This document shows positions 17,733-43,374 of a stretch of 64,000 bases of DNA, in pieces. The DNA comes from Flavobacteriales bacterium (GTDB taxonomy: Bacteria; Bacteroidota; Bacteroidia; CAIKAF01): positions 90,811 to 154,810 of the forward strand of contig JAOABX010000002.1 in NCBI GenBank assembly GCA_026418175.1. The letters run 5' to 3'. Numbering within the stretch: the first letter of the stretch is position 1; every line of letters begins with the position of its first letter. The notes beneath the pieces are model-generated. The model made no database searches, had not been told where the DNA came from, and saw only the letters and a program-made list of their open reading frames with translations. A program made the position numbers and the translations under genes.

Positions 17733-17736
17733 AAAT

Positions 17737-18105
17737 AGGCAAGCCGACTGGTCGCTTTGCCGTAAGGTAGAGAGGAAAGTCCGGGCAGCGTAGGGCAACA
17801 CACTTCCTAACGGGAAGGCATTGTCAACTTAGTTGATAATGACGGAAAGTGCCACAGAAAATAACCGCCCCGTTTTTACGGGGTAAGGGTGAAAACGTGC
17901 GGTAAGAGCGCACGGAAATACCTGGCAACAGGTGTTTCGGGTAAACCCTGTGTGCTGAAAGACCAAATAAACCCCGAATGCCTGTCGGCCCGGCAGCGTG
18001 TTCTTCGGAACCGTCGGGGAGGGTAGGTTGCTTGAGGTGCCGGGTGACCGGTATCCCAGATAAATGGCCAGATAAAACAGAACCCGGCTTACGGGCTTGC
18101 CTTTT
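17737..18105 (+). ncRNA. rnpB: RNase P RNA (bacterial class A)
   Basis: This is the catalytic RNA that cuts the 5' leader from precursor tRNAs. The terminal P1 helix is visible: AGGCAAGCC at the 5' end (from 17737) pairs with GGCTTGCCT at about 18094-18102. The universally conserved 5' core GAGGAAAGTCCGGGC follows at about 17771, AACGGGAAGGC at about 17809, and the 3' core has ACAGAACCCGGCTTA at about 18077-18091. The length of about 369 nt and the P-loop layout fit class A. A run of T follows P1 and probably ends the transcript. Confidence 0.95.
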
Positions 18106-18162
18106 TTATTGAATCATTATACAACATCAAATATTTCTGGATGATTTTAGAATATTAAAATA

Positions 18163-35281: not shown

Positions 35282-37090
35282 TTATTTGCCTTTTTTCTCT
35301 TGTTCTTCCAGCTTATTTTTGAGTTCGCTTAAGGAACTTACATCGCCTAATGTAGTTTTTTCTACATTTTTATTTACCTCTTTTACTGCTTTCTTGGTAG
35401 ATTTCTCTTCTTTCTTTTTTTCTTCTTCTTTTGCTTTTTCCCAAGTACGAGTATGAGATACCAATATCTTCTTCTCGTCTTTTGAGAATTCTAAAATTGC
35501 AAAAGGAAGTTTTTCATCTAGCTGTGCTTTGCTACCGTCTTCTTTTTTCAAGTGCTTCATCGGAGCAAAAGCTTCGATACCATAAGCCAACGATACAACA
35601 GCACCTTTATCATTTAATTCAATGATAGTTCCATCATGAAACTGATTAACATCAAACACTGTACTGAAAACTTCCCATGGATCTTCTTCCAACTGCTTAT
35701 GACCAAGGCTTAAGCGACGATTTTCAGGATCAATTTCCAATACTTTTACTTCAATTTTATCGCCTAGCTTACAGAACTCAGATGGATGTTTGTATTTCTT
35801 AGTCCATGAAAGGTCAGAAATATGAATTAATCCATCAACTCCTTCTTCTAATTCAACAAAAATACCATAGTTGGTAAAATTCTTAACTTCTGCAGTGTGT
35901 TGGGTACCAACAGCATATTTGGTAGGTACTTCATTCCAGGGATCTGGCTTGAGTTGTTTAATACCCAATGACATTTTTCGCTCATCACGATCCAAAGTAA
36001 GGATTACTGCTTCTACTTCATCACCCACTTTCAGGAAATCTTGTGCTGAGCGCAGATGCTGGCTCCAGCTCATCTCAGAAACGTGAATTAACCCTTCAAC
36101 ACCGGGAGCAATTTCAATAAATGCTCCGTAATCAGCAAGTACTACTACTTTTCCTTTTACTTTATCACCAGGCTTCAAATTCGGATCTAATTGTTCCCAA
36201 GGATGAGGAGTAAGTTGTTTCAAGCCAAGGGCAATACGCTTTTTCTCTTCATCGTAATCAAGTACTACCACTTTGATTTTCTGATCTAGTTGTACAATTT
36301 CTTCCGGATGATTGATGCGTCCCCAACTTAAATCAGTGATATGAATTAATCCATCTACTCCGCCCAGGTCAATAAATACTCCGTAAGATGTAATGTTTTT
36401 AACCACACCTTCCAGTACTTGGCCTTTTTCAAGCTGCGACATGATGGCCTTCTTTTGTTCTTCCAGTTCTTCTTCCAGAAGAATTTTATGAGAAACTACG
36501 ATGTTTTTGAATTCGTGGTTAATCTTCACCACTTTAAATTCCATGTTCTTACCTACGTACACATCATAGTCACGAATAGGCTTCACATCAATTTGTGATC
36601 CAGGAAGAAATGCCTCAATACCAAATACATCAGCAATCAAGCCACCCTTGGTACGGCATTTAATTAAACCGGTAATAACTTGGTCTTTTTCATGAACCTC
36701 CTGTACTTTATCCCAAGCGCGAATTGCTCTTGCTTTTTTGTGAGATAACAGTAATTGCCCGTTTTTGTCTTCCAATTTATCAATATAAACCTCAACGATA
36801 TCGCCAATTTTTAAGTCTGGATTGTAACGAAACTCTGTACGAGGAACAACACCTTCTGATTTGTATCCTATGTTAATTAGTACATCTTTAGGTGTGATAC
36901 CTACTACTTTGCCATCAACAATTTCGTGTTCGGCAACGGTGCTGAGGGTTGTAGAATACATCTTTTCGTAATTTTCACGATCAGATGCTTTATACGTTTC
37001 ACCCTTTTTTCCCATTTCATCCCAGTTGAACTCACCGGGTTGCTGAGTGGTTTCTACAACTTCAGCTAAATCTTTGTTTTCTTCAGACAT
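35282..37090 (-). CDS. rpsA: 30S ribosomal protein S1
   Basis: A 602-residue S1 with six S1 RNA-binding repeats (from about residue 50 to 540). The best preserved are EGVVKNITSYGVFIDLGGVD, KGKVVVLADYGAFIEIAPG and AEVKNFTNYGIFVELEEG, each followed by GLIHISDLSW or a close variant. An acidic N-terminus (MSEENKDLAEVVE) and a lysine/glutamate-rich tail flank them. S1 binds mRNA on the small subunit and in many bacteria represses its own translation. It is preceded by a structured leader of about 130 nt and followed by a strong terminator, so it is monocistronic. Confidence 0.97.
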   Translation of the reverse strand: MSEENKDLAEVVETTQQPGEFNWDEMGKKGETYKASDRENYEKMYSTTLSTVAEHEIVDGKVVGITPKDVLINIGYKSEGVVPRTEFRYNPDLKIGDIVEVYIDKLEDKNGQLLLSHKKARAIRAWDKVQEVHEKDQVITGLIKCRTKGGLIADVFGIEAFLPGSQIDVKPIRDYDVYVGKNMEFKVVKINHEFKNIVVSHKILLEEELEEQKKAIMSQLEKGQVLEGVVKNITSYGVFIDLGGVDGLIHITDLSWGRINHPEEIVQLDQKIKVVVLDYDEEKKRIALGLKQLTPHPWEQLDPNLKPGDKVKGKVVVLADYGAFIEIAPGVEGLIHVSEMSWSQHLRSAQDFLKVGDEVEAVILTLDRDERKMSLGIKQLKPDPWNEVPTKYAVGTQHTAEVKNFTNYGIFVELEEGVDGLIHISDLSWTKKYKHPSEFCKLGDKIEVKVLEIDPENRRLSLGHKQLEEDPWEVFSTVFDVNQFHDGTIIELNDKGAVVSLAYGIEAFAPMKHLKKEDGSKAQLDEKLPFAILEFSKDEKKILVSHTRTWEKAKEEEKKKEEKSTKKAVKEVNKNVEKTTLGDVSSLSELKNKLEEQEKKGK

Positions 37091-37225
37091 TTGTCTTTTT
37101 TAATTAATTCCGGCTTACCGATATATTGCGCTCCTGATAGGATGTTCGTGGAGCGCCCTATATCGTCTGCCATTGGTTTGACATAAATTCCATAATCCTG
37201 AACATCCTCCCCTTTAAAAAAGGAG
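37091..37225 (-). promoter_or_regulatory. Structured rpsA leader with hairpin and predicted pseudoknot
   Basis: The leader contains a long hairpin: CGATATA (37119-37125) pairs with TATATCG (37159-37165) and GCGCTCC (37128-37134) with GGAGCGC (37150-37156), separated by a 2x2 internal loop, i.e. 14 bp. The 15-nt apical loop holds, on the minus strand, GAACATCCT, which is exactly complementary to AGGATGTTC further 5' in the same leader (37208-37200). Pairing of these 9 nt would form a pseudoknot or rearranged fold. The hairpin ends about 29 nt before the rpsA ATG. A role in autogenous control by S1 is inference; I cannot match it to a named RNA family. Confidence 0.65.
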
Positions 37226-37227
37226 TG

Positions 37228-37235
37228 CAAAAATA
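37228..37235 (-). promoter_or_regulatory. -7 promoter box of rpsA
   Basis: On the minus strand TATTTTTG matches TAnnTTTG. Transcription would start near 37222, giving a leader of about 130 nt, unusually long for this genome. No clear -33 TTTG is present. Confidence 0.55.
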
Positions 37236-37290: not shown

Positions 37291-39096
37291 TTACATTCGT
37301 TCTGGAGCATCTATTCCTAATAAATATAAGGCCTTTTGGATAGTTTTTCCGCATTGGTCTGTAAGTGCCAACCTAAATTGTCGTGCATCAGAATCATCTT
37401 CCTTTAAAACTTTATAATCATGGTAGAAATTACTAAATAAGCAAGCTAGTTCATACACATAGTTGGCAATTAATGCAGGGCTATAATTTATACCCGCCTC
37501 TTTGATAACCAACGGGAACTGAGCCATCCAACGAATTAACTGAGTTTCTTTAAGATTGGGAGTATAGTTGCTCTCACTTAGATGTTGAATATTAAAGGTT
37601 AAACCCAATTGAGTTGCATTACGTAATAATGATTGAGTTCTGGCGTAGATATATTGAATGAATGGCCCGGTATTTCCATTAAAATCAATGGATTCTTCAG
37701 GATTAAAGATCATTTTCTTTTTTGGATCTACCTTAAGTATAAAATATCGAAGTGCTCCAATACCAATTTGTTTATAAATTTCTTCTTTTTTACTTTCATC
37801 CACTTCACTTAACTTGCCTTGCTCATTAGCTGTTTCTTTAGCTATTTTAATTACATCATTTATTAAGTCATCAGCATCCACTACAGTTCCTTCCCGGCTT
37901 TTCATTTTACCGGTAGGCAACTCTACCATACCATATGAAAGATGATATAATTTATCTGATGCTTTCATTCCTAACCTTCGTAAAATTTCAAAAAGCACCT
38001 TAAAATGATAATCCTGTTCATTCCCAACTACATAAATTGAACGATCAAATTCAAAATCTTTTTGTTTTTGGTATGCTAGGGCAATATCTTGTGTTATATA
38101 AACTGTGGTTCCATTGCTTCTTAGAACCAATTTTTCATCCAACCCAACATCTGTAAGGTCTATCCAAACAGAGCCATCTGGCTTTTGAAAAAATACACCT
38201 TTTTCTAATCCTTCTTTTACAGTTTGTCTGCCCAAATTATATACATCAGATTCATAGTAAAACTTATCAAATTTTAAATGAAGCATCTTATATGTTTGCT
38301 CTACACCTTCATAAAACCAGTGGTTCATTGTTTTCCAAAGAGCAACGACCTCTTCATCACCGGTTTCCCACCGTACTGTCAAATCTGCGATTTCTTTTTC
38401 CAGTGGGTTTTGTTTTTTGGCTTCTTCTTCTGTTAATCCTTGAGCTTTTAACTCTTCTATAGCTTTCTTACTAAGCTCGTTATAGACAACATAGTAATCA
38501 CCAACCAGCTTATCCCCTTTAATGCCTGAATTTTCAGGAGTTAGCTTTTTTTCGCTTAGCATGTAGGCTAACATGGATTTTGAAATGTTGGTTCCTCGGT
38601 CATTGTATAAACATACTTGATATACTTTGTGGCCATTGGCCTCCAGAATTCTTGATAGGGAAAAACCTAGAAATATGTTTCGTAAATGTCCCAAATGAAG
38701 CGGCTTATTGGTATTGGGTGATGGATATTCAATTATAACATTTTCAGTTGTTTTATTATGTTTACTTAAATAAAAACTTTCATTTCTATAAATTTCATAA
38801 AGTAAATGCTTCCAGTATGATTTTTTTAATTCCAGATTCAAAAAACCTTTTACGAGATTAAAATTTTCAATGCGTGAATCAGAGGCCAAAAGGGCTTTAC
38901 CAACGGCTTCGCCTATTTGTTGAGGATTCATTCCCAGTTTTTTAACAAATGGAAATAAAACCAAGGTATAATCTCCAGGATATTCAGGGGGCGTTAGATT
39001 AATAAGTATATCTTTTGGCTCAATTATATCTGTATAATTGCTTAATTTATTCAAAATGCTTGCACATTGTTGAGCTAATTCCAGTTGAAAATTCAT
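37291..39096 (-). CDS. argS: Arginyl-tRNA synthetase
   Basis: A 601-residue class I synthetase. The N-terminal additional domain (about 1-110) that contacts the tRNA elbow is followed by the catalytic core with HLGH of the HIGH motif (PNTNKPLHLGHLRN), the KMSKS-like loop MKSREGTVVDADD, and a C-terminal helical anticodon-binding domain (about 480-601, ending YLLGIDAPERM). It charges tRNA-Arg with arginine. It lies about 75 bp downstream of the arginase gene on the same strand, so both arginine-using genes may be transcribed together. Confidence 0.96.
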   Translation of the reverse strand: MNFQLELAQQCASILNKLSNYTDIIEPKDILINLTPPEYPGDYTLVLFPFVKKLGMNPQQIGEAVGKALLASDSRIENFNLVKGFLNLELKKSYWKHLLYEIYRNESFYLSKHNKTTENVIIEYPSPNTNKPLHLGHLRNIFLGFSLSRILEANGHKVYQVCLYNDRGTNISKSMLAYMLSEKKLTPENSGIKGDKLVGDYYVVYNELSKKAIEELKAQGLTEEEAKKQNPLEKEIADLTVRWETGDEEVVALWKTMNHWFYEGVEQTYKMLHLKFDKFYYESDVYNLGRQTVKEGLEKGVFFQKPDGSVWIDLTDVGLDEKLVLRSNGTTVYITQDIALAYQKQKDFEFDRSIYVVGNEQDYHFKVLFEILRRLGMKASDKLYHLSYGMVELPTGKMKSREGTVVDADDLINDVIKIAKETANEQGKLSEVDESKKEEIYKQIGIGALRYFILKVDPKKKMIFNPEESIDFNGNTGPFIQYIYARTQSLLRNATQLGLTFNIQHLSESNYTPNLKETQLIRWMAQFPLVIKEAGINYSPALIANYVYELACLFSNFYHDYKVLKEDDSDARQFRLALTDQCGKTIQKALYLLGIDAPERM

Positions 39097-39171: not shown

Positions 39172-40224
39172 TTAGGACTTCTTTTTACCAGCCGATTTAC
39201 TTTGTTTTTTTTCTGGAGAAGGTGAATTAATACCTTGGGCTGCTTTCAACATTTTCTGTTCCCTGGCCTGTTTTTTCTTTATTTTCTCTATGGTATTGAC
39301 CGCATCTCTAAAAATAGGAAATACCCTAACAGCAGTTCTGTTTTCATCATCCAACAATGGATTGATTTCTGTAATCTCAAAACAAGCTACACGAGGATCT
39401 TTCAGTAATGTAGTTAAAATTTTTTTTGCTTCTTTTACGGTTAGTCCGTTTGGCACCGGAGTCCCGGTACCTTTTACCAACGACGCGTCTAAAGAATCTA
39501 TATCAAAAGAAACATACAGTATTTCACATTGCTTAAGATAATCAAGTACATCCTTGCAAATTTCCTTGATTTTTCCTTTCCGTAAATCCTGAACTTTTAT
39601 AACTTTTATGTTGTGTTTAAGAATATACTGAATTTCTTCAGTTTCATAATCACGTAAGCCGATAAATACTAAATTATCTGGAGTGATTTTAGGACAAATA
39701 CCACCCACATTTTTAAGGATATCCCAATAGGGAATCGTATCACCCGTTACCGGATTTTTGGGTTTGTCTTGAAAATCAATACCTAATGCTGCTGCCAAAG
39801 GCATTCCATGGATATTGCCAGACGGTGTGGTATAAGGTGAATGAAGGTCTGCATGGGCATCTATCCAAATTACACCAACTTTTTTATCCGGAAAAGCCAT
39901 TTTTACTCCGGCTATGGTACCCCCAGCACTGCTGTGGTCTCCGGAAATAACCACTGGAAAACGGCCTGCTTTTATTTCTTTTGATACGGCATTGGCTTGT
40001 TTTTCAAAGATTTTTACTACTCCACGTATTCGCTTGGCATAATGCCTTACTGGGTTTTTATAAAGCAATCTGGAGCTGTCTTTTATTTCCTTATTTTTAA
40101 ACTTACCAAAGAAATATGAACCATATTCTAACGAGGCTAATTTTAATGCTTCTATTCCCAAACTGGCTCCACGTGTTCCTGCACCTAATTCTGAACGTAC
40201 TTCTATTAATTTTATCCCTTTCAT
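39172..40224 (-). CDS. Arginase
   Basis: A 350-residue ureohydrolase. The manganese motifs are SGDHSSAGG, WIDAHADLHSPYTTPSGNIHG and SFDIDSLDAS. The TPSGNIHG stretch and EITEINPLLDDENRTA fit arginase better than agmatinase, which has a different specificity loop. Arginase splits arginine into ornithine and urea. The C-terminus carries about 30 extra residues rich in lysine (KKQSKSAGKKKS), beyond the usual 300-residue fold. It is divergent from the arginine decarboxylase gene with about 117 bp between the starts, which suggests shared control of arginine use. Confidence 0.85.
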   Translation of the reverse strand: MKGIKLIEVRSELGAGTRGASLGIEALKLASLEYGSYFFGKFKNKEIKDSSRLLYKNPVRHYAKRIRGVVKIFEKQANAVSKEIKAGRFPVVISGDHSSAGGTIAGVKMAFPDKKVGVIWIDAHADLHSPYTTPSGNIHGMPLAAALGIDFQDKPKNPVTGDTIPYWDILKNVGGICPKITPDNLVFIGLRDYETEEIQYILKHNIKVIKVQDLRKGKIKEICKDVLDYLKQCEILYVSFDIDSLDASLVKGTGTPVPNGLTVKEAKKILTTLLKDPRVACFEITEINPLLDDENRTAVRVFPIFRDAVNTIEKIKKKQAREQKMLKAAQGINSPSPEKKQSKSAGKKKS

Positions 40225-40341: not shown

Positions 40342-41730
40342 ATGAAAGTACATTATGCAGATCTGATTAAGCAGACCTTTGAATTTCCACAGGAAGGTTT
40401 TAATGTGGAAGATGGCGAACTATTATGGCATGATATTCCTATGATGGAGATTATCAAGCAATACGGAACTCCACTTAAAATCACATACCTGCCAAAGATC
40501 AGCGCTCAGATTCAAAGAGCAAAGATAATGTTTAAAGTGGCAATGGCAAAGGCTGATTACAAGGGAGAATACACGTATTGCTATTGTACAAAGAGCTCCC
40601 ATTTTAGCTTTGTAATGGAAGAAGTACTGAAAAACGACGTGCACGTAGAAACCTCATCTCATTACGACATGGAGATTTTGCGTGAACTATATAACAAAGG
40701 TTTGATTGATAAAAACAAATACATTGTTTGCAATGGGTTCAAGCGGGAAGGGTATATGCAAAACATTGTAAAATTTGCTAACGATGGTTTTAATATTGTT
40801 CCAATCTTGGACAATACAAATGAATTAAGTTATTATGACAAACATGCCAAAAGCCCAATGAAAATAGGCCTTCGGATTGCATCAGAAGAAGAACCTAATT
40901 TTGAATTTTACACTTCCCGGCTTGGAATTCGATACAAAGACATTGTTCCATTTTATCAGTATAAAATTAAAGGAAACAAAAAGTTTCAGGTAAAAATGTT
41001 ACACTTCTTTATAAATACCGGTATTCGTGATACGGTATATTATTGGAGTGAGCTTTCTAAGTGTCTCAGTGTATATTGTGAATTGAAAAAAGTTTGTCCG
41101 GAGCTTGATTCGTTGAACATTGGCGGCGGGCTTCCCATAAAAAATTCGCTGGCCTTTGAATTTGATTATGAATATATTATAAATGAAATTGTTCAACAGA
41201 TAAAATCGTTTTGTAACGAAAATGGTGTAGAAGAACCAAATATTTTTACAGAGTTTGGTTCATTTACAGTAGGAGAGAGTGGGGCTTCTTTATTTTCAGT
41301 TATAGATTCTAAAATGCAGAACGATACTGAGATTTGGTATATGATTGACAGTTCGTTTATCACAACCCTTCCAGATACTTGGGGATTAAAGCAACGATTC
41401 ATACTGCTAGCTATTAATAACTGGAATAAACAATATCAGCGTGTAAATTTGGGAGGATTAACCTGTGATAGCTTAGATTATTATAACGCAGAAGCTCATA
41501 TCGGGCAAGTGTTTTTACCCAAGTATGATCCTGGAGAAACATTATACCTTGGATTTTTTCATACAGGTGCATATCAGGAATCGTTAGGCGGATATGGAGG
41601 AATTCAGCATTGTTTAATTCCGGCTCCCAAGCATGTAATTATTGATAAAGACGAAAACGGAGAATACTTTACAAAGCTTTTTAGCAAAGAGCAGAGTTAT
41701 AAATCCATGCTGAAGATTTTGGGATATTAA
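40342..41730 (+). CDS. speA: Arginine decarboxylase-like PLP enzyme
   Basis: A 462-residue fold-type III PLP-dependent decarboxylase of the type annotated as arginine decarboxylase across Bacteroidota. The PLP lysine is probably in YCYCTKSSHFSF (about 69-80). Typical barrel motifs are HVETSSHYDMEIL, LNIGGGLP (glycine-rich phosphate loop), FTEFGSFTVGE, and the C-terminal GYGGIQHCLIP. It is shorter than the 650-residue E. coli SpeA. It would make agmatine for polyamine synthesis, opposite in effect to the neighbouring divergent arginase. Other basic amino acids or carboxynorspermidine-type substrates cannot be excluded from sequence alone. Confidence 0.8.
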   Translation: MKVHYADLIKQTFEFPQEGFNVEDGELLWHDIPMMEIIKQYGTPLKITYLPKISAQIQRAKIMFKVAMAKADYKGEYTYCYCTKSSHFSFVMEEVLKNDVHVETSSHYDMEILRELYNKGLIDKNKYIVCNGFKREGYMQNIVKFANDGFNIVPILDNTNELSYYDKHAKSPMKIGLRIASEEEPNFEFYTSRLGIRYKDIVPFYQYKIKGNKKFQVKMLHFFINTGIRDTVYYWSELSKCLSVYCELKKVCPELDSLNIGGGLPIKNSLAFEFDYEYIINEIVQQIKSFCNENGVEEPNIFTEFGSFTVGESGASLFSVIDSKMQNDTEIWYMIDSSFITTLPDTWGLKQRFILLAINNWNKQYQRVNLGGLTCDSLDYYNAEAHIGQVFLPKYDPGETLYLGFFHTGAYQESLGGYGGIQHCLIPAPKHVIIDKDENGEYFTKLFSKEQSYKSMLKILGY

Positions 41731-41793: not shown

Positions 41794-43374
41794 ATGAACT
41801 TAGAATTTGTTTCATTTCAGACGGCACGGATAGGAAGCCGTCTGTTTCATGATTATATATCCGGATCTTCCGTTCTATCCTCTTTTTATTCTTTTACGCC
41901 TTCTGTTCATTCAGTTGAAGCTGCAGTAAATGCAAGAAAAAATATGCCTGTGAACCGGGCACAATTGGTATCTATTCTCCATAAACAATATCAAGGAGTT
42001 ACAATTTCAAGGGCAGTAAATGAAAACATTCAATCACTCCTTGATGAAAATACATTTACCATTACTACGGGCCATCAGGTATCGTTGGTTACCGGTCCGT
42101 TATATTTTATTTACAAGATTATTTCGGTGATTGCATTAGCCGAAGAATGCAAAAAAAAACATCCAAAATTGAATTTTGTACCAGTGTACTGGATGAATTC
42201 GGAAGATCATGATTTTAATGAAATAAATCATATATGGATCAACGAACAGCGATTTGAATGGCAGCGCCCTACTCCTATACCTATGGCAACCGGACGAATG
42301 CAACCCTTCGGAATAGAAGATTTCTTTAAATCATTACCTGCATCAATTCAGGAATTTCCTTCATGGGTAGAATGGAAAGATATTTATACGAACGCTAAAA
42401 ACATATCAGAAGCTACTCGAATATTAGTAAACCTTTTATTTGGGAAGTATGGTCTTGTTGTAATAAACCAGGATGATGTGCGTCTGAAACGTTTGGCATT
42501 TGATGTTTTTCATAAAGAACTAACACAACATTACTCATTTAAATTGGTTCATGAAACAACGCAAATGCTTGAAAGCCTTGGTTACCATGCGCAGGTAAAA
42601 CCTAGAGAATTGAATTTGTTTTATCATCACCCTGAAGCAGGCCGTCAGCGGGTAGTGTTGATGGATGACAGGATTAAAGTGTTAAACACACCGGTAGAAT
42701 TATTAAAATCTGAATTGGATAAGCTTTCGGATGAACAATTAAATTGTTTTAGCACAAACGTGGTAACTCGACCACTTTATCAGCAGTCGGTATTACCCGA
42801 TATAATATATGTAGGAGGCCCAGCAGAAGTGAGTTATTGGTTACAATATAAATCCATGTTTCATATGCATGGGGTTTTTTACCCTTTGATTATGATGCGT
42901 GATTCATTTTTGTTGCTCAATCCCTCTGTAAGCAGAAAAATAAACAAATTAGGAATTAAAGTTCCTGAATTATTTTCTGAAGAATCAATTTGGCAAAAAA
43001 CACACGTGAGCCGTATGGCTGAAGAAATTAATTTTACTCCTATTCATCAAACCCTGCAACAGAGTTATCATCAATTAGCTGAAGCGATGGGCCGAATTGA
43101 TCCTACCTTAAAACCAACTGTCATTGGTGAATTGCAGAAACATATTCATTCATTAAAAAACCTAGAAGCAAAATACCTACGAGCCTGGAAACAAAAAAAT
43201 GAAACGGTGGTTAGGCAATTACGAGAAATCCGATCAGCAGTTTATCCGGTAGGAGAAATGCAAGAAAGGCATAATCACCTTTGGGCGCATGCTTCAGACC
43301 CCGAACAGTTCATTGCCATGATTTTATCAGCTGCCAATCCATGGAATTTACAAGTAAAAGTGTTAGAGCTATGA
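41794..43374 (+). CDS. bshC: Bacillithiol biosynthesis cysteine-adding enzyme BshC
   Basis: A 526-residue BshC, which joins cysteine to GlcN-malate in the last step of bacillithiol synthesis. Recognisable segments are TTGHQVSLVTGPLYFIYKI (about 90-108), VPVYWMNSEDHDFNEINH (about 128-145) and YVGGPAEVSYWLQYK in the centre, followed by a coiled-coil region and the C-terminal HAHASDPEQ-like end (LWAHASDPEQFIAM). Together with bshB1 at 17 kb it shows the cell makes bacillithiol. Its TGA overlaps the ATG of the next gene as ATGA. Confidence 0.94.
   Translation: MNLEFVSFQTARIGSRLFHDYISGSSVLSSFYSFTPSVHSVEAAVNARKNMPVNRAQLVSILHKQYQGVTISRAVNENIQSLLDENTFTITTGHQVSLVTGPLYFIYKIISVIALAEECKKKHPKLNFVPVYWMNSEDHDFNEINHIWINEQRFEWQRPTPIPMATGRMQPFGIEDFFKSLPASIQEFPSWVEWKDIYTNAKNISEATRILVNLLFGKYGLVVINQDDVRLKRLAFDVFHKELTQHYSFKLVHETTQMLESLGYHAQVKPRELNLFYHHPEAGRQRVVLMDDRIKVLNTPVELLKSELDKLSDEQLNCFSTNVVTRPLYQQSVLPDIIYVGGPAEVSYWLQYKSMFHMHGVFYPLIMMRDSFLLLNPSVSRKINKLGIKVPELFSEESIWQKTHVSRMAEEINFTPIHQTLQQSYHQLAEAMGRIDPTLKPTVIGELQKHIHSLKNLEAKYLRAWKQKNETVVRQLREIRSAVYPVGEMQERHNHLWAHASDPEQFIAMILSAANPWNLQVKVLEL

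Follow-up and report, generated by a model that had tools for sequence, protein, structure and literature searches.

A covarying pseudoknot ahead of rpsA in Bacteroidia, a candidate leader for feedback control of ribosomal protein bS1

The rpsA gene of a Flavobacteriales bacterium is preceded by a leader in which a hairpin loop pairs with a strand farther upstream, and conservation in relatives makes this predicted pseudoknot certain. The leader is probably a new ribosomal protein leader, in a phylum that lacks Shine-Dalgarno (SD) sequences. Judged from sequence and by analogy, autogenous translational control by bS1 is the most likely function, about evenly balanced against all others taken together. 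If true, the leader would exert feedback control on the very protein thought to replace SD recognition in the phylum.

The window, the whole 64-kb stretch of DNA that was analyzed, encodes bS1 at 35282 to 37090 on the minus strand. The protein has 602 amino acids and six Pfam S1 domains, and it scores 912.6 bits against the NCBIfam equivalog model (cutoff of 720). The argS gene lies upstream on the same strand and ends at 37291, leaving an intergenic gap of 200 nt. A promoter box of the TAnnTTTG type is found at 37235 to 37228, and thus the transcribed leader is probably about 137 nt from this predicted start. A TAnnTTTG box sits at the same place ahead of most rpsA leaders of the class. The features of the leader are as follows, all on the minus strand.

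37228 to 37235, minus strand: promoter -7-like box TATTTTTG, Bacteroidota TAnnTTTG type, from sequence reading; likely leader start.
37196 to 37224, minus strand: possible weak P1 hairpin, UCCU (37224-37221) with AGGA (37199-37196); tentative, read by eye.
37200 to 37208, minus strand: pseudoknot 5' strand AGGAUGUUC, complement of 37139-37147; kept by compensatory changes throughout genera g1, g4, and g5 (12 leaders).
37176 to 37182, minus strand: unpaired conserved element GUCAAAC (GUnnAAC); GUnnAAY is present in 12 of 12 pseudoknotted family leaders.
37169 to 37171, minus strand: tentative basal pair strand GGC, partner GCC at 37112-37114; RNAfold, with GGC/GCC or GGCG/CGYC in L003 to L007.
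37159 to 37165, minus strand: outer stem 5' strand CGAUAUA; changes on both sides in 8 of 9 outer-stem columns in the family.
37150 to 37156, minus strand: inner stem 5' strand GCGCUCC; changes on both sides in 8 of 8 inner-stem columns in the family.
37139 to 37147, minus strand: pseudoknot 3' strand GAACAUCCU, within the hairpin loop (37135-37149); exact complement of 37208-37200.
37128 to 37134, minus strand: inner stem 3' strand GGAGCGC; RNAfold and family comparison.
37119 to 37125, minus strand: outer stem 3' strand UAUAUCG; RNAfold and family comparison.
37112 to 37114, minus strand: tentative basal pair strand GCC; RNAfold, with matching pairs in L003 to L007.

The hairpin, CGAUAUA-GG-GCGCUCC with GGAGCGC-AA-UAUAUCG, has 7 plus 7 bp, a symmetric 2x2 internal loop (GG/AA), and a 15-nt loop. 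Sequence reading and RNAfold show that the original prediction, a 14-bp hairpin with a 2x2 internal loop and a 9-nt complementarity of 37139-37147 with 37200-37208, was exact in its coordinates; RNAfold recovers the same hairpin (leader z = -2.33). From the end of the structure to the rpsA AUG there are 28 nt, GUAAGCCGGAAUUAAUUAAAAAAGACAA, in which no SD is found. A search for a transcription terminator at the rpsA leader found none; termination was therefore rejected as the role of the leader, and translational control is more likely. In the possible weak P1 of the window, the pseudoknot 5' strand would sit in the P1 loop, making it the counterpart of a P1 hairpin seen outside the family; in the sister leader, L003, this hairpin reaches 6 bp (AGUCCU/AGGACU). 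In f1 leaders, the C-rich first bases are complementary to the G-rich beginning of the pseudoknot 5' strand (CUCC with GGAG, for example; window 37206 to 37226, minus strand), which makes a competing fold possible.

How often such a match arises by chance was estimated by listing hairpins with a stem of at least 5 bp and scoring the best contiguous duplex of each loop with the upstream leader. The duplex of the window leader amounts to -16.0 kcal/mol by nearest-neighbor stacking. One as strong arose in 14 of 4,000 dinucleotide shuffles of the leader, and in none of the 4,000 together with an equally strong hairpin. With the 64-kb window itself as genomic background, 22 of 3,084 overlapping 137-nt segments had as strong a duplex and 2 of 3,084 an equally strong hairpin as well. 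The claim that a chance match is unlikely stands insofar as the match is uncommon; from one genome alone it is not extraordinary, and by itself it is suggestive only. An ordinary hairpin with a fortuitous 9-nt complement could account for the match, as those window segments indicate, but it does not account for compensatory conservation across the family and the class. We count chance as refuted and give it a negligible probability.

The family comparison comprised 16 leaders, those of 15 other family genomes and of the window. All 12 leaders of genera g1, g4, and g5 keep the hairpin and a pseudoknot of 7 to 11 bp in largely different sequences. They share a layout of a 5' pseudoknot strand, a linker of 21 to 39 nt that includes GUnnAAY, a hairpin divided in two by an internal loop, the 3' pseudoknot strand inside the hairpin loop, and then 14 to 31 nt to the AUG. 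The strands pair as AGGAUGUUC/GAACAUCCU, UUGGAUGCC/GGCAUCCAA, GGGACAGUCGG/CCGACUGUUCC, or GGGUGCC/GGCACCC, and when strands of clearly different pair types were exchanged, the foreign strands mostly paired far worse than the leader's own. A MAFFT alignment of the family misregisters the helices, and pairing was therefore counted in a hand registration that leans towards structure: the pseudoknot is 100% paired with changes on both sides in 7 columns, and the inner and outer stems are 98.6% and 97.5% paired, with 8 such columns each. In 1,000 shuffles, neither the share of paired cells nor the count of doubly changed cells ever came up to the observed value. The swap and shuffle tests of loop-upstream pairing across the class, given below, are independent of the hand registration. 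Thus, the complementarity is kept in close relatives, and the covariation on which the fold had been staked appears in more distant ones as compensatory changes in three helices, the pseudoknot and the two stems of the hairpin. The remaining 4 of the 16 leaders (L015, L017, L019, and L029), from other genera, are without the long pseudoknot. We note that an rpsA contig of the window's genus (L032, JACSSC010000049.1) is recorded as Candidatus Competibacteraceae, an apparent misassignment.

The pairing of a loop with an upstream strand extends beyond the family. The rpsA gene was found in 60 relatives and, within the class, in 284 of 295 genomes; the analysis covered 133 leaders. Many Bacteroidia rpsA leaders consist of a P1 hairpin, GUnnAAC, a P2 hairpin, UACAA, and the AUG, with the P1 and P2 loops complementary to one another as kissing loops. 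An automated scan of the 133 leaders for loop-upstream pairing gave p <= 0.05 in 51 (6.7 expected) and p <= 0.01 in 32 (1.3 expected). The pairing was lost when a leader was given the upstream half of one from another family (KS p = 5e-13). A stem closing directly before UACAA, generally preceded by AAC-nnC, occurs in 61 leaders of 21 families. Outside families f21 and f28 there are 46 of these, and in 25 (about 2 expected) the leader's own upstream sequence is a better partner than 95% of foreign ones. In the 76 leaders with a defined P2, 15 of them with P2 set by hand, the loop found its partner in an upstream hairpin loop at p <= 0.05 in 41 and at p <= 0.01 in 25. Examples of loop pairs are ACCUGA/UCAGGU (L205), GCCGAUG/CAUCGGU (L196), AUUCGACA/UGUCGAAU (L125), and GCCCUAAU/AUUAGGGC (L220), and family f41 alone shows compensatory change at 5 of 7 pseudoknot positions. 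GUnnAAY is present in 71 of 128 class leaders, compared with 24.9 in shuffles (maximum, 35). The window leader agrees with the class motif in having, ahead of rpsA, GUnnAAC followed by a hairpin with a loop that pairs farther upstream.

In a MAFFT alignment of 21 sequences, built with no structural information, the AA...U...AUACAA columns are invariant, and the six P2 pairs are paired in 97.6% of cells, against 70.0% when shuffled. The covariation score of P2 is 0.901 versus 0.310 in shuffles (reached in 0 of 500), and at most 0.25 when the pairing is slid. In a search of 46 genomes with the P2 covariance model, R1, all 26 matches at E <= 0.021 lie before rpsA, six of them in leaders outside the model, and the six matches away from rpsA all have E >= 0.05. 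The leader shows two marks of an r-leader, a covarying structure at the 5' side of a ribosomal protein mRNA and a consistent association with that gene. A search of 247 genomes of the phylum with stricter filters, which is uninformative on spread beyond the class, gave one match (E = 0.012) beside a prolyl-oligopeptidase-like gene unrelated to rpsA, and R1 scores near that value therefore include noise. R1 found no match in the window genome, where the AAC-nnC-U...A-UACAA context is absent; UACAA after the stem is likewise absent in the window and its family. Because R1 misses the window, the link between the long-pseudoknot and kissing forms rests on the gene, the position, the plan, GUnnAAC, and the pairing of loop with upstream strand.

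Not every family has the fold. The pseudoknot is absent though rpsA is kept in family f3 (10 leaders), in f21 (9 leaders), and in most Bacteroidales, and thus it is not indispensable. In most of the Bacteroidales leaders retrieved, UAAUGUCUAAC stands a short way ahead of the rpsA AUG, a placement read from extracted leaders, and mostly GUCUAAC alone is kept; with two mismatches allowed, Bacteroidales UAAUGUCUAAC is not distinguishable from background. In most of these leaders (L034 to L111), a conserved UAAUGUCUAACnnAYUAA without clear structure lies 20 to 60 nt before the AUG. GUYUAAC-like leaders that have lost P2 and the loop pairing also occur in L021 and L159 (both f32) and in L147 to L173 (f3), and these may be reduction intermediates. 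Constraint on an upstream reading frame, on the promoter, or on 5'-end sequences might have preserved the fold as a mere bystander, and indeed, AUG-UCN-AAC is found in the element of the window (MSNQWQTI, then a stop) and of most Bacteroidales. Most pseudoknotted family members, however, have lost this AUG (GUAAAAC, GUUUAAC), several Bacteroidales have AAG, TTG, or TAG in its place, and compensatory change in three helices is left unexplained. With its AUG so poorly conserved, the upstream reading frame was rejected; the compensatory changes refute the bystander account as the main explanation, and we regard it as very improbable. We find it plausible, if slightly short of an even chance, that a bS1-sensing kissing-loop leader spans the Bacteroidia, taking the form of a long pseudoknot in one family and of bare GUCUAAC in Bacteroidales. 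Kissing loops, a long pseudoknot, and an unstructured remnant would then form a rare evolutionary series.

How the leader may act is suggested by bS1 itself, which represses its own rpsA mRNA in gamma-proteobacteria (PMC10931766). We favor translational feedback by bS1 because of that precedent, the restriction of the class motif to rpsA, the position at an SD-less start, the conserved single strands, and the lack of a terminator. Bacteroidia are without SD sequences, and an A-rich motif upstream of start codons is a proposed binding site of bS1 (PMC6847099); thus, the simplest model has free and 30S-bound bS1 compete for the leader, as in E. coli. The hairpin near the start region is anchored upstream through its loop, by a long pseudoknot in the window's family or a kissing loop elsewhere, leaving GUnnAAC and, outside the window's family, UACAA single stranded near the hairpin. 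Protein not bound to the 30S subunit could bind the exposed strands on the folded leader, block 30S loading at the SD-less start, and so act as the repressor of rpsA. Uptake of bS1 by 30S subunits would then free or melt the leader and allow rpsA to be translated. Against control by bS1 stand the families that keep rpsA without the pseudoknot and the failure of R1 to match the window.

Loss of the fold with retention of the gene would also fit a constitutive element, one that shields the 5' end of a strongly expressed mRNA or that keeps the start region open as a standby and presentation platform for ribosomes, without sensing bS1 or anything else. The fold is followed by an unpaired A/U-rich start region of the kind that SD-less Bacteroidota prefer (PMC6847099), and a pseudoknot is reported to be essential for standby translation of E. 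coli tisB (PMC7708055). In tisB, an upstream pseudoknot influences 30S loading, but the RNA is a toxin mRNA with a sequestered start and not a ribosomal protein leader. A constitutive role leaves unexplained why the class model occurs only at rpsA and why GUnnAAC and UACAA are conserved unpaired, and we consider it unlikely, if the most serious alternative. A regulatory RNA for another ligand, be it uS2, a global RNA-binding protein, or a metabolite, is less likely still. Ribosomal protein leaders sometimes bind a partner, and in E. coli the repression that uS2 exerts on its own operon depends on bS1 (PMC10931766). Moreover, bS1 shows little sequence preference among single-stranded A/U-rich RNAs, and a conserved unpaired heptamer is thus unusually specific for it, which also speaks against control by bS1. 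No second gene shares the motif in the R1 search of 46 genomes, however, and since the motif precedes a single gene, the encoded bS1 is the simplest ligand.

The fold is kept by matched changes and is absent from the RNA catalogues searched, and thus we regard it as probably a new S1 control element. No Rfam 15 family, including the Alpha_RBS, S15, and L20 leaders, matches the window leader at gathering scores, as the original prediction had left for a search to decide. At E <= 10 only STnc410 (0.39) and SmY (2.2) appear, far below their thresholds, as chance matches, and the rpsA loci of 20 relatives gave no Rfam match. Pseudoknotting controls translation of ribosomal proteins in the S15 (rpsO), S4 alpha operon (RF00140), and L20 leaders. 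These differ from the present leader in gene and fold, and none matches it in Rfam. The 20 r-leaders of Eckert and Weinberg 2020 (PMC7247131) include no S1 leader. Nor does the main text of two other structured-RNA surveys (PMC6429828, PMC8040213), although a description elsewhere is possible. In the literature we found no description of how the level of bS1 is set in Bacteroidota.

The closest comparison is the bS1 operator of gamma-proteobacteria such as E. coli, which shares the gene, a place just upstream of an SD-poor start, and bS1 as the ligand, proposed here and with repression demonstrated there. Unlike the present leader, it is a specific fold with A/U-rich single strands that bS1 binds cooperatively, and its description, by which we set it apart, has no pseudoknot, GUnnAAC, or UACAA (PMC10931766). 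The L13 and S4 candidates of Bacteroidia and the S15 and S16 candidates of Flavobacteria are computational, with covariation and one main target gene each (PMC7247131); they come from the same phylum and were likewise predicted, but their target genes differ. In Flavobacteriales, bS21 (rpsU) regulates itself through an exceptionally strong SD that senses ribosomes without bS21 (PMC9976891), which is also autogenous control of an initiation-related protein in SD-less Bacteroidia but involves no leader fold. The present leader adds a candidate r-leader missing from Rfam. With bS1 suspected of guiding ribosomes to SD-less mRNAs of Bacteroidota, it may be a compact target for bS1 autoregulation and RNA recognition.

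Other features of the window were noted in passing. A bacterial class A RNase P RNA lies at 17736 to 18107 on the plus strand (Rfam RF00010, 271.6 bits). Beside argS, an arginase-family gene (39172 to 40224, minus strand; 227.1 bits with the arginase model, just under the cutoff) and a gene for a short, 462-amino-acid SpeA/LysA-like decarboxylase (40342 to 41730, plus strand; far below both cutoffs) stand head to head as an arginine-related cluster. Finally, BshC, a bacillithiol biosynthesis enzyme, is encoded at 41794 to 43374 on the plus strand (NCBIfam, 394.8 bits).
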